This document shows positions 20,236 through 50,446 of a stretch of 64,000 bases of DNA, one piece after another. A model generated the notes under the pieces. The model saw only the letters and a program-made list of their open reading frames with translations, was not told the origin of the DNA and searched no databases. The stretch is from assembly GCF_003437035.1 (NCBI RefSeq), contig NZ_QSRL01000006.1:1-64000 (forward strand), read 5' to 3'. This DNA comes from Collinsella sp. TF08-11AT (lineage in GTDB: Bacteria > Actinomycetota > Coriobacteriia > Coriobacteriales > Coriobacteriaceae). Position numbers and translations under genes: made by a program. The stretch's first letter is position 1, and every line of letters starts with the position of its first letter.

Positions 20236-21237
20236 ATGGATACACTGCTCGAGGCCATTGACGTCTGCGATGTCGATGGCTTTTGCTATGGCAACTATAC
20301 GGACGAGGAGGCCGGCACCGGTTGCACCGTAATCGTGGCACCCGAGGGCGCCACCGGCGGCGTTGACGTTCGCGGCGGTGCTCCAGCATCGCGCGAAACC
20401 GACCTGCTGCGACCCGAGAACACCGTCGACAAGGTCCACGCCGTCTGCCTTTCGGGCGGATCGGCCTTTGGTCTGGAGGCCGCAAGCGGCGTCGCCCGCG
20501 AGCTCGAGAGCCGCGGCATCGGCCTTCCCGTCGGCCCCACGCAGGTGCCTATCGTGTGCTCCAGCTGCATCTTCGACCTCGCCTTTGGCGATCCCACCGT
20601 GCGCCCCGACATAGAAGCCGGCATCGCCGCCGTGCGCGAGGCACTCGACAACACCCCCACCACACTCGAGCAGGGCAATGTAGGTGCCGGCACCGGTGCT
20701 ACCGTAGGAAAGCTCATGGGCCCCGCCACCTGCATGAAGGCCGGCCTTGGCGCTGCCGCCGTGGCGCTCGGCCCTGTCAAGGTGGGTGCCGTGGTCTCGG
20801 TCAACGCCTGCGGCAACGTCGTCGACCCGACCACGGGCGAGTGGGTAGCCGGCATGCGCGCCGCAGCCGATAGCGACCAGATCGTCGACATGGAGCTCGC
20901 CGCTTTTGCCGCCGCCGGCTCTATGCAGATGCCGCTCGACCGCACCAACACCACCATCAGCTGCATCGTCACCAACGTGGAACTCACTAAGGCCCAGGCC
21001 ACCAAGGTCTCCCAGATGGCAGCAGACGCCTACGCGCACGCCATTCGCCCCACGCATACCACCAACGACGGCGACACCATCTACACCCTTGCCAGCGGCA
21101 AACTGGGCGCCCAGGCAAGCGCCGCCGTTCCCCTAGACCTGCTGGGCATGCTCGCCGTAAGGGCCCTGGAAACCGCCATCGTAAATGGAGCCAAAACCGC
21201 CAAAACCTCCCACGGCATCCCCGGCGCCGCGAGGTAA
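20236..21237 (+). CDS. P1/S58 family peptidase (DmpA-like)
   Basis: Ntn-type hydrolase of 333 residues in the DmpA/NylC P1 family, which self-cleave and then act as aminopeptidases or amidases. Signs are CLSGGSAFGLEAASGVAREL near residue 71, NVGAGTGATVGK near 148, and DRTNTTISCIVTNVEL near 236, where self-processing before a Thr (239 or 240) exposes the nucleophile. No signal peptide is visible, so it is probably cytoplasmic. TAGGAG lies seven bases before the ATG. Substrate is unknown. Confidence 0.87.
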   Translation: MDTLLEAIDVCDVDGFCYGNYTDEEAGTGCTVIVAPEGATGGVDVRGGAPASRETDLLRPENTVDKVHAVCLSGGSAFGLEAASGVARELESRGIGLPVGPTQVPIVCSSCIFDLAFGDPTVRPDIEAGIAAVREALDNTPTTLEQGNVGAGTGATVGKLMGPATCMKAGLGAAAVALGPVKVGAVVSVNACGNVVDPTTGEWVAGMRAAADSDQIVDMELAAFAAAGSMQMPLDRTNTTISCIVTNVELTKAQATKVSQMAADAYAHAIRPTHTTNDGDTIYTLASGKLGAQASAAVPLDLLGMLAVRALETAIVNGAKTAKTSHGIPGAAR

Positions 21238-21249
21238 TCTCACTCGTCC

Positions 21250-21378
21250 GTCGGTCGGAGGCGGGCGGGCATTACGTTTGCTGCTCTACAGTCCTATGCA
21301 AGACGAAGGCCACATTAAGTGGCCTTCTTTGCATGCGGAACTCGCGACAAACGTAATGCCCGCCCGCCTCCGACCGAC
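21250..21378. repeat. Long-arm palindrome A with conserved core
   Basis: Outer arms of 31 bases (21250-21280 and 21348-21378) are perfect complements. Inside, stem ATGCAA/TTGCAT and a 9-bp stem GAAGGCCAC/GTGGCCTTC close a five-base loop. Read on the minus strand the core is AGTTCCGCA - stem - TTAAT loop - stem - AGGACTGT, the same as palindrome B. It also lies where a terminator for the P1 peptidase gene would be, but with no U-tract after the outer stem. Confidence 0.8.
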
Positions 21379-21429
21379 TTCCAACCTTATTCTTTTCAGC
21401 TCAGGCCCCTGTGTACCGCGCGTCTAAGG

Positions 21430-21630
21430 TCTTCAAATTCAACTAACCTGACAATCGATTCATATAGCAGAGGCCCCTTGGCCGTTAGTTTGATACAAGT
21501 TCCGCACGAGCCGGAAAGCACTTAATGTGCTTTCCGTGCGAGCAGGACTGTTCGCAGTAGCAAACTAAAGGCCAAGGGGCCCAGTCAACCTAACAGCAGC
21601 GATTACTCGGCAGTTAGTTGAATTTGAAGA
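21430..21630. repeat. Nested palindrome B with conserved core
   Basis: Core arms 21472-21492 and 21561-21581 pair over 21 bases with one mismatch. Inside are AGTTCCGCA, a 9-bp stem GGAAAGCAC/GTGCTTTCC closing a TTAAT loop, and AGGACTGT. Further out an 18-base perfect inverted repeat (21430-21447 and 21613-21630) extends into the last codons of the glycosyltransferase gene, so that gene's 3' end is duplicated in inverted orientation beyond the palindrome. Confidence 0.8.
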
Positions 21631-22645
21631 TCTTTGAGGCAAGACGGTATAGGCCGAGTGTGGTTTTGTCTCCGGCACGACCGCGGAGGTTAGTGAAGAA
21701 GCCGACCACGCCGTAGCGAGCACGACGATACATGCGCTCGTCGTAGGCCTTTAAATCGCTCCATAGCGTCTTCAGGCGCTCATCGGCGAAATCCTCGTCG
21801 GAAAGCTTGGTGAGCACCGAGCAGATCGCCATCATCATGGTGAAGTAGCCCATCATGTACGAACGCAGACGCGACGACTCGACATCGCTGTACAGGTGGT
21901 ACGACTCCATCATGATACGCGTAACACGGAACTGCTGGTCCAGACGCTTGACCATCGTGGCCTCGTTGACACTCTGGCCCTCGCGACCGATAAAGTAGCG
22001 ATAGAGGTCGATGTCGGCGTAGTACATGGTCTTGCAACGCGGCAGCGGCACGTAGGCGTAGATGTTGTCCACATAGAACGTGTGCGGCGGCATGGGCAGG
22101 TTGGACTCGCGCAGCACATCTGTGCGATAGCACAGGCTGTGCATGAGCAGATTCTGGTCCAAACGGAAATGGCCGATCTGGTCCCAGGTAAAGATCTTTT
22201 TTCGCGGCAGGGCAAACTTGTAACCAATGGCAGTATGAGTACCCTCGTAAACCTTCTCGTACACGTAGTTCGAGATAAACAGGTCAACGCGCTGGTCGCG
22301 CTCTTCAAAGCCGCGCAGAATCGACAGCATGGTCGAAAGGGCAGCGCCGTCAAGCCAGTCGTCCGAGTCGACAACCTTGTAGTAGGTGCCCTGCGCCTCG
22401 CGCAGACCCGAAAGGACGGCAATACCGTGACCGCCATTCTCCTGGTGCACCGCGCGGATGATTCCAGGATAACGGGCCTCCCACTCGTCGGCCTTGGCGG
22501 CCGTCTCGTCCTTGGAGCCGTCGTCCACCACGATAATCTCGATATCGGTGGCGAAATTGCTCCCCTCCAAAATGGAGGTGATGCAATGGTCCATGTCCTT
22601 GGCGGCGTTATACGAGGGAATACCGAATGTTATGACTTTATGCAT
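21614..22645 (-). CDS. Family 2 glycosyltransferase
   Basis: GT-A fold glycosyltransferase of 343 residues. It begins HKVITFGIPSYNAAKDMDHC and has nucleotide-sugar motifs IEIIVVDDGSKDET near residue 42 and YYKVVDSDDWLDG (DXD-like) near 88. It probably adds a sugar to a surface glycan. The start at 22645 is inside the end of the UDP-galactopyranose mutase gene (8-base overlap), so the two are coupled and galactofuranose may be the donated sugar; that is inference. A start 18 bases earlier is possible. The C-terminus lies inside palindrome B. Confidence 0.85.
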   Translation of the reverse strand: MHKVITFGIPSYNAAKDMDHCITSILEGSNFATDIEIIVVDDGSKDETAAKADEWEARYPGIIRAVHQENGGHGIAVLSGLREAQGTYYKVVDSDDWLDGAALSTMLSILRGFEERDQRVDLFISNYVYEKVYEGTHTAIGYKFALPRKKIFTWDQIGHFRLDQNLLMHSLCYRTDVLRESNLPMPPHTFYVDNIYAYVPLPRCKTMYYADIDLYRYFIGREGQSVNEATMVKRLDQQFRVTRIMMESYHLYSDVESSRLRSYMMGYFTMMMAICSVLTKLSDEDFADERLKTLWSDLKAYDERMYRRARYGVVGFFTNLRGRAGDKTTLGLYRLASKIFKFN

Positions 22646-23840
22646 GGCAGGCGATAATCTCATCCGAAAGATCGAGGGCGGAATTGGTCACGGCGTCCAT
22701 ATCGTAGTAACGATACTCGGCCAGACGACCCACCGGGTGGAAGTTCGTCAGGTTCTGGACGCGCTCAAGATAGCGCTCATAGAGCTCACGGTTCTCGGGC
22801 TCAAGAATGGCGTAGTACGGCGTCTCGCCCGAGCCGGGCGTATAGGCCTTGGAGTACTCCTTCATGATGGTGGTCTTGCCGGGCAGGACCTGACCAGTCA
22901 TGTTCTTGAACTCGGTGATACGCGTGTAATCCTCGCTCGTGGTGTAATTGACGGTGCCCACAGGCTGGAACTGGTCCATATCGAGCGTCTCGAACTTCAT
23001 ATCGAGCGTACGGTACGGCAGAGCGCCCAGGTCGAGGTTGAACAGCTCATCGAGCGGACCGGTATAAACGATCTCGCCGCCATAGACCTTACCGTCGATC
23101 TTGACGGTGGTCTCGTCGATCTCGAAGAGGTCGCGGGCGTCCACGTCGCAGAACACATCAATCAGATCGTGGTCGAGCATATGCTCGAACAGCGCGGTAT
23201 AGCCGTCCTGCGGCATGCCCTGGAAGGGAGCCTGCGGGAAGTAGCGGTCATCATCGCCCACAAAGATGGGAACGCGGCCGGTGATCGAGGGGTCGATCTG
23301 ATCGGGCGTCTGGCCCCACTGCTTCATGGTGTAATGCAAAAAGACGTTCTCGTAGACGTAATCGGCGACCTCGGCAAGATCCGGGTCGTTCTTCTTACGC
23401 AGCTCCATGATGGGCACCTTGACATCCTTGCCAAAGGTCTCCACGAGCTTCTGATACAGCTCCTCGCCGCGCTCGTCACCAAAGGCGAGCTTGAGACTCG
23501 CATGGTTGAAAGGCACGGGCATAAGGGTGCCGTTGATGTTGGCGAGCACCTTGTGCTGATAATCCGTCCACTTGGTAAAGCGCGACAGGAAATTGTGCAC
23601 GCGCTCGTTAAAGGTGTGATAGATATGCGGACCGTACTCGTGGACCAGGATTCCGGCCTCGTCAGTGCAGTCATAGGCATTGCCCGCAATGTGGCTACGG
23701 CGCTCCAAAACGGCAACACGATAGCCGATGGTCTCGGCAAGACGGCGGGCGCAAACGGCACCGGCATATCCAGCACCGACGACAATCATGTCGTACGCGC
23801 CGGCGTTAAAGCCTTCAGGCAGGCCTGAGGTAATCTGCAT
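22638..23840 (-). CDS. glf: UDP-galactopyranose mutase
   Basis: Flavoenzyme converting UDP-galactopyranose to UDP-galactofuranose for cell-surface glycans. The 400-residue protein has the FAD Rossmann motif DMIVVGAGYAGAVCARRLAE near residue 17, then RSHIAGNAYD and YGPHIYHTFNERV, and GLF-domain features VNYTTSEDYTRITEFKN and EPENRELYERY. AAGGAGTATCG precedes the ATG. First gene of a two-gene operon with the glycosyltransferase. Confidence 0.95.
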   Translation of the reverse strand: MQITSGLPEGFNAGAYDMIVVGAGYAGAVCARRLAETIGYRVAVLERRSHIAGNAYDCTDEAGILVHEYGPHIYHTFNERVHNFLSRFTKWTDYQHKVLANINGTLMPVPFNHASLKLAFGDERGEELYQKLVETFGKDVKVPIMELRKKNDPDLAEVADYVYENVFLHYTMKQWGQTPDQIDPSITGRVPIFVGDDDRYFPQAPFQGMPQDGYTALFEHMLDHDLIDVFCDVDARDLFEIDETTVKIDGKVYGGEIVYTGPLDELFNLDLGALPYRTLDMKFETLDMDQFQPVGTVNYTTSEDYTRITEFKNMTGQVLPGKTTIMKEYSKAYTPGSGETPYYAILEPENRELYERYLERVQNLTNFHPVGRLAEYRYYDMDAVTNSALDLSDEIIACHA

Positions 23841-50079: not shown

Positions 50080-50228
50080 AAAGGTTCCTTTCATAGGTGC
50101 GCGCCAGTTACCGTCTTATTGTGCCGCAAGATTGCCGCACCCTTGTTTCTAGCATATCCCTGCATTTTTTAAACGTTATATACGAATACTCTTGTTTGGT
50201 AAAGTGCAACGTGGTAGGGTCGTTACCA

Positions 50229-50376
50229 CTTGATAGAGGCGCGGGCACGATGAGCCGCGGGCGAGTCGGCAGACTTTGACCCCGCGGGGAGGTGAAACCC
50301 GCCGAACTGGGTTTTTCGGGCACGAACAACCTGGTGGGCCTGCGGGAAACACCCGCAGGACTGTCTGCAGCAATGC
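50229..50376 (+). ncRNA. Lysine riboswitch (L box)
   Basis: About 150 bases with the L-box conserved stretches in order: GATAGAGGCGCGG at the 5' side, GGGGAGGTGAAACCCGCCGA (about 50286-50305) for the P2 region, a CCTGCGGG/CCCGCAGG stem (about 50338-50358), and GGACTGTCTGC at the 3' side. It lies in the leader of lysA-dapA-dapB-dapH. By family knowledge, lysine binding shuts off expression. Exact ends are approximate. Confidence 0.88.
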
Positions 50377-50381
50377 GGGAG

Positions 50382-50446
50382 CGCTATCCGGACATTGGGT
50401 CCACGCTATGCGGATTCGATGCGCAGATGGCGCCGTCTGGATAGCG
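50382..50446 (+). promoter_or_regulatory. Expression platform of the lysine riboswitch
   Basis: CGCTATCCGGAC (50382-50393) can pair with GTCTGGATAGCG (50435-50446) over 12 bases with one G-U. The right arm abuts the GAGG ribosome site 10 bases before the ATG. No U-tract follows, so control of translation start is likelier than termination. Confidence 0.6.

Follow-up and report, generated by a model that had tools for sequence, protein, structure and literature searches.

The two long palindromes which lie side by side in the window, that is, the whole analysed stretch of 64,000 nucleotides from Collinsella sp. TF08-11AT, are both copies of one family of interspersed hairpins that has no match in Rfam. 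A sequence-only reading had noticed two palindromes sharing a core, and this observation is real. We suggest that the element is a non-autonomous interspersed hairpin which would be recognised as folded single-stranded DNA, would enter beside gene edges and would have its arms built by template switching. We give this interpretation not quite an even chance.

Both palindromes are sited between two convergent genes, a Peptidase_S58 family gene on the + strand (20236–21237), which ends before A, and a family 2 glycosyltransferase gene on the − strand (21614–22663), which ends before B. Palindrome A (21250–21378) starts 12 nt past the end of the Peptidase_S58 gene and carries its core on the − strand (21290–21341). 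Its outer arms (21250–21280 and 21348–21378) are complementary at 31 of 31 positions, just as had been read from the letters. Palindrome B (21472–21581) carries its core on the + strand (21499–21549). Its arms had been given as paired in 20 of 21 positions. They are indeed paired, but they are slightly longer, with 25 nt on each side (21472–21496 and 21557–21581) and 92% complementarity. In opposite orientation A and B have the same inner design, as had been described. In full it consists of GTTCCGCA, a middle module (TGCAAA/GTCTTGCAT in A, CGAGCC/GTGCGAGC in B), an apical stem with its loop (GAAGGCCAC-TTAAT-GTGGCCTTC in A, GGAAAGCAC-TTAAT-GTGCTTTCC in B) and AGGACT. The 9-bp stems of both pair fully and differ at four positions, each of which is compensated. 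The core pattern AGTTCCGCA-N(15-30)-TTAATGTG has two matches in the window versus none in 100 shuffles, and the folding energies of A and B lie 10–15 SD below those of shuffles.

The element is present many times in G001, the genome nearest to the window in our comparison set. We aligned 25 copies, 23 of them from G001, with the motif itself being part of the selection. Common to these copies are TTCCGCA, AGGACT, the TTAAT loop, an apical stem and one of a few middle modules; the 6-nt middle stretch between AGTTCCGCA and the apical stem comes in three main versions, to which A adds a variant. The invariant parts of the element are GCGAGTTCCGCA and AGGACTG, which make internal loops around a 3-bp helix, and the arms and the apical stem are variable and covary. 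As we interpret it, the element is defined by a strand-specific fold. When the core(+) strand is folded, the 3-bp helix TCC/GGA lies between two conserved internal loops, the outside one formed by GCGAG.. opposite ..TGnnnGAGC and the inside one by GCA opposite A. A kink-turn was considered by eye as a candidate reading of the inside loop. The fold is capped by the variable stem–loop and closed by variable arms of about 20–55 bp.

The covariation was tested statistically on the 25-copy alignment, as the sequence-only reading had proposed. Standard pairs fill 92.5% of the 550 cells of the 22 tested pairs, and changes on both sides are seen in 14 pairs versus a shuffled mean of 10.9. The covariation score is 0.455 versus 0.162 for shuffled alignments, and it is at most 0.162 when the pairing is slid. 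One of the five covariation measures, the number of further pair types, gives no excess (26 versus 26.7 shuffled). The stems thus vary by compensated substitutions, and the contrary outcome, stems kept as simple sequence without compensatory change, is not what we find.

That reading had also known no named family for the palindromes, and we arrive at the same result. At the gathering threshold no family of Rfam 15 matches the element in the window and none covers the element in 18 other loci. At a relaxed threshold there are only weak hairpin matches, such as mir-4859 with a score of 43.1 versus the 100 needed. Elsewhere in the window Rfam identifies a lysine riboswitch (50226–50394, + strand, RF00168, 80.2 bits). 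We found no account of this core in the titles and abstract openings of the mostly open-access literature searched.

A scan with a covariance model, likewise proposed beforehand, yields further copies in large numbers. The model R1 matches 40 of the 43 genomes of the genus and 15 of the 246 genomes in a sample of the phylum, six of these 15 being of the same genus. The match counts take in both strands of the same hairpin. For genome G002 we therefore subtracted 28 opposite-strand and four weak matches from the 65 listed, which gives about 33 copies. These show no replication-strand bias, with 18 on the leading and 15 on the lagging strand. One weak third copy (27.9 bits) in this genome lies inside an inverted pair (1636239–1636321) and is perhaps a decayed or variant element.

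To look beyond Coriobacteriia we scanned with the core pattern GCGAGTTCCGCA-N(14-44)-GAGGACTGT, which gave at least 120 stretches. Among the matches listed, 80 have titles; 60 of these carry names which we take to be those of Coriobacteriia (Adlercreutzia, Olsenella, Enterorhabdus and others), one is an uncultured actinobacterium and 19 belong to other groups, namely MAGs of Bdellovibrionales, Myxococcales, Chloroflexi, Gemmatimonadetes, Dormibacterota, Singulisphaera, Lachnospiraceae, other Actinobacteria and a few more. The 120 loci listed hold 130 pattern matches, of which 115 have enough flanking sequence and 101 are non-redundant (the named set). Arms above the 99% level of mismatched flanks are present in 102 of the 115 copies, and a core stem of at least 5 bp in 83 of the 101 named copies versus 9% of mismatched halves. 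In 16 genomes picked for having a match, three of them Coriobacteriia, we counted 66 matches to a shorter pattern and none to its reversal; 13 of the 16 hold two or more copies. Since the scan demanded the exact core bases, variation of the core is outside its scope, and it shows that these bases recur, not how far they vary.

We inspected 37 loci of the pattern scan. Arm scores of 15.5–27.5 were found in Bdellovibrionales, Myxococcales, Chloroflexi, Gemmatimonadetes, Dormibacterota and a planctomycete (Singulisphaera), with a second core in Gemmatimonadetes scoring 9.0. The Lachnospiraceae copies keep the core and have arm scores of just 5.0–9.5. Matches in Sinorhizobium (8.0), Acidobacteriia (6.5) and nzgw201 (5.0 and 6.0) are without well-paired arms and may be due to chance. 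Eight of the 37 loci are viral contigs; we discard these as probably chance matches because their arm scores are all 5.0–6.5. Binning errors in the MAGs are possible, but as several groups carry the element they are unlikely to be the full explanation. Two of the loci have particular arrangements. A Lachnospiraceae copy (Acetatifactor MAG, L348, position 6394, + strand) lies between two genes which, judged from their sequence, we take to resemble trpD and trpC. In a Gemmatimonadetes MAG (L381, 785–895) two cores of the same direction stand about 75 bp apart, and after them the end of the arm recurs as short direct repeats.

The behaviour of arms and core is best seen at fixed sites. At the DUF711 site, loci from 30 of the 43 matching genomes were inspected by eye. 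The element is present in 22 of 22 close relatives and is cut by the contig end in L138 and L140. The close relatives show two arm types; G002 combines both in a chimera, its two arms being of different type. Four further genomes (G030, G040, G020 and G014) have the element at the same place and in the same orientation with other arms and another stem, and in four of the 30 loci (G041, G042, G036 and G013) a plain hairpin stands in its place. The window's own site is legible in 11 close loci. Here A has one arm type in five loci, another in five, and is chimeric in L080. B has two arm types, and its apical hairpin is lost in L064. At a third site both arms are legible in 11 loci, and three of these (L101, L103 and L105) are chimeric. 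G002 has an inverted element with other arms at the L019 site and retains only half of the element at the L006 site. The arms are thus subject to recombination and to loss of pairing. Most of them are nevertheless perfect or close to it, and core and position persist. The idea put forward from the letters, a repeated structured element or a mobile palindrome which keeps its core and rebuilds its arms, is supported by the many copies, and the proposed comparison of syntenic sites lets us see different arms around the same core at the same site directly.

Movement can be judged from the same sites. Both flanks could be mapped for 21 of the 23 G001 sites, and 20 of these 21 hold the element in G002, with a different gap length at one of the 20 (L013). 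Recent movement therefore appears to be rare. No clean empty site or excision was encountered among the sites inspected. Over longer times the element seems to have spread separately, because none of nine sites from G028, G038 and G017 (six with both flanks mapped) coincides with an element of G002. Four loci of low-copy species (L041, L042, L044 and L049) fall on three G002 sites; L046, L056 and L058 do not. Many Collinsella-like genomes offer near-matched sites with different or chimeric arms and damaged elements, so that the rate and the mechanism of arm rebuilding are directly measurable.

The element has a preferred orientation relative to genes. Among the 26 G002 elements with parsable arms, a stop codon lies within 50 nt of the 3′ side of the core in 14 and of the 5′ side in one (p 0.001), and the smaller gap is on the 3′ side in 20. 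Similarly, in 63 of the 77 named copies for which a gene is called on both sides, the gap on the right is the smaller one. Within 90 nt to the right, the nearest gene has its end beside the element in 50 of the 101 named copies and its start in 18. Genes which start beside copies include leuS, cysS, ffh, recO, rapZ and those for a serine dehydratase and a GHMP kinase resembling homoserine kinase. Of 23 close pairs among the matches listed in six genomes, 21 are (−,+), none (+,−), one ++ and one −−, counting typed matches only and leaving out one weak G002 match. Since the 3′ side usually adjoins a gene, be it with its start or its end, and the pairs are almost all (−,+), the orientation goes more with the edge of the gene than with the way it is transcribed. 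In tandem gene contexts the mRNA reads the core either way, with 33 −− and 24 ++ contexts among the 101 named copies and 12 each among the 33 in G002.

A rival reading sees in the element an RNA-level 3′-end or leader element, a hairpin that terminates, protects or regulates the transcripts of the adjacent gene. We consider such a role unlikely, though a serious contender. In its favour are the stop codons on the 3′ side in G002, the frequent inverted close pairs (the two convergent genes around A and B have one copy each), the copies just before the starts of the genes named above and the plain hairpins at the DUF711 site, which by eye look like terminators. Like intrinsic terminators, the element can be a GC-rich hairpin directly after a stop codon, and in some relatives a terminator-like hairpin holds the same place. 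Unlike them, it has a conserved internal loop, has copies in leaders as well and is without a consistent U-tract (in 14 gene-end copies the following 12 nt contain 4.0 T on average, a figure that comes without a control), which weakens a terminator role. Two terminator-like sites, with 1.0 expected, overlap one arm of A and one of B; the loop limit of 8 in this search means that it cannot test whole palindromes. Further against a role in the mRNA stands that the tandem contexts present the core to transcription in both directions.

The wobble pairs bear on the same question. In the arms of the 101 named copies, mismatches read on the core strand are GU in 114 and AC in 23 cases; as 41 of the 114 GU are at one shared position, the ratio is 73 versus 23 without it. 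In the −− context, where the mRNA is the other strand, there are 42 GU versus 6 AC (26 versus 6 without the shared position), and in the ++ context 27 versus 5. Selection at the level of the mRNA should reverse the ratio in the −− context. The wobble bias keeps to the core strand whichever way transcription runs, and this speaks against a role at the level of the mRNA. Within the Collinsella-like sets the bias is weak or nil, with 17 versus 11 (p 0.34) and 37 versus 22 (p 0.07), and with 18 versus 17 in 53 and 45 versus 31 in 102 copies. As paralogues share ancestry, the wobble counts are not independent and their force is limited. The sequence-only reading had left the choice between selection on RNA and on DNA undecided; the strand-fixed asymmetry, weak in the genus itself, leans indirectly towards the DNA level.

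An independent small RNA, read from the core(+) strand and running into the neighbouring gene as its leader or as an antisense transcript, would account for both the strand-specific wobble and the orientation to genes. Against it, promoter-like sequence in the reading direction is not in excess on the 5′ side: the forward promoter score is higher in 44 and lower in 52 of the 101 named copies, higher in 15 and lower in 29 of the 47 copies of the Collinsella-like set, and no promoter-like site was found in 20900–21900. We therefore regard a small RNA as decidedly improbable.

Beyond the arms, a second concentric inverted repeat is sometimes found. In the window it encloses B with 28 nt at 89%: the left half (21420–21447, + strand) is an inverted copy of the 3′ end of the − strand gene, and the right half (21613–21640, − strand) consists of the final codons and the stop of the adjoining gene. 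The outer repeat of this site is also present in G002, where it ranks at the top against mismatched-flank controls. Altogether seven of the 26 G002 elements have an outer repeat above the 95% level of 650 mismatched-flank comparisons, with 1.3 expected; five of the seven have p ≤0.0015, and the other 19 elements have no significant outer repeat. In four of the seven, the 3′ coding end of the gene next to the element is part of the repeat. At 451440–451535 of G002 there is a perfect outer inverted repeat of 17 bp which by eye appears to include the coding end of its neighbour. In a Bdellovibrionales MAG, a tRNA gene has its end within an outer repeat of 28 bp. The named set shows a modest excess: 14 of its 101 copies are above 95% and four above 99%. 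The spacers between the inner arms and the outer repeat are non-complementary, so that a single fold-back event does not explain the outer repeats.

Short motifs also recur at the feet of the arms. GAG precedes the 5′ arm in 36 of the 101 named copies versus 14 far away, and in 7 versus 5 of the 47 Collinsella-like copies. CGAG follows the 3′ arm in 16 versus 3 named and 6 versus 1 Collinsella-like copies. These two motifs point to a possible second conserved loop beyond the arms. GGAC is found at the outer feet in 12 versus 3 and 7 versus 0 copies, respectively.

We suggest that the element could arise and persist in the following way. The core(+) strand would be recognised, when single-stranded, by a putative, widely shared enzyme of the host or of a mobile element. 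The element would enter next to gene edges with a preferred orientation, its 3′ side towards the gene. Template switching during replication at the hairpin would then make the arms and restore their pairing after mutation or recombination, and it might sometimes place an inverted copy of the adjacent gene end on the opposite side of the element. It is documented that template switching can create and repair stems and can yield perfect stems and multibase compensatory changes (PMC8794818, consulted in part). The hairpins described there by Monttinen and Loytynoja (2022) are like ours in that they have perfect stems and several compensatory changes at once; unlike ours they result, as far as the consulted part of that paper goes, from a mutation process acting on any hairpin, whereas here a shared core is central in many genomes.

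It is also conceivable that the hairpins are neutral, template switching alone keeping the arms paired and the core being recognised by nothing. This would explain the perfection of the arms and the low wobble of the Collinsella-like copies without selection, and it fits with mispaired chimeric arms being tolerated. We nevertheless hold it to be improbable, as identical core bases come back in many copies from several phyla, surrounded by different stems, a statement on recurrence and not on rates of change because the scan required these bases. That a core of about 19 bases recurs while the stems are replaced suggests that something recognises it. Covariation is usually taken as proof of a functional RNA. 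Here the covariation is strong, yet the strand and context data point away from the mRNA; the family thus lends itself to testing whether such a covariation signal can be imitated by template switching.

Nearest in habit are the REP repeats (PMC3733652, PMC8266576, PMC2817692, each consulted in part). Like REP, BIME and REPIN sequences, which are reported in the portion of the review available to us as short palindromic extragenic repeats of several phyla, often in inverted pairs at gene 3′ ends (PMC3733652), our elements are interspersed extragenic palindromes, form inverted pairs and lie mainly downstream of genes. The element resembles REP repeats but is without their defining features. What is conserved in our element is an internal loop. 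Only a minority of copies has a foot tag, the arms are long and differ between copies as well as between the same sites of relatives, and no resident RAYT is required.

Membership in the GTAG or CGTC superfamilies of REP repeats moved by RAYT transposases would have some support besides habit. Of the 101 named copies, 15 have GTAG near the 5′ foot, versus three of 101 far controls, and 11 GTAG stand at one fixed offset before the 5′ arm, so that a subset may carry the tag. Y1_Tnp genes (PF01797) are present in 13 of the 22 genomes searched. They are missing, however, from G017 (23 matches), G215 (37 matches) and the low-copy genomes G097, G120 and G064, all of which carry copies, and the two Y1 genes of G002 lie tens of kilobases from the nearest element. 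GTAG is seen in only three of the 47 Collinsella-like copies. CGTC is likewise a minority, with 6 of 101 and 6 of 47 at the 5′ foot and 13 of 101 and 1 of 47 at the 3′ foot (far controls 4 and 16 of 101). Moreover, REPs are described as 20–40 bp long in the available portion of the review (PMC3733652), according to which CGTC repeats are also without a dedicated transposase. These absences already largely refute membership, which we consider highly improbable.

Reverse transcriptases of group II introns or retrons were tried as another partner and rejected: PF00078 is found in four of 11 genomes and is missing from G002, G017, G064, G286, G290, G294 and G287. As Y1 transposases and reverse transcriptases are missing from genomes which carry copies, neither tracks the element, and no mobilising enzyme tracking it was found among the genomes searched for these two. 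Short Y1 transposase genes of 167 aa occur fourfold in G007, with the same score, and once each in G024 and G001.

We tentatively propose, at somewhat less than an even chance, that the family represents a third cross-phylum superfamily of bacterial palindromic repeats. It would be marked by an internal loop in folded single-stranded DNA instead of a foot tag, would be served by a putative shared enzyme, and its arms would be rebuilt continually by template switching, some of them from the flank of a gene. A comparable use of folded DNA is known from the attC sites of integrons, which are strand-specific folded DNA with arms free in sequence. The present element shares these properties with attC sites as they are generally described; unlike them, its copies stand single or paired beside genes.
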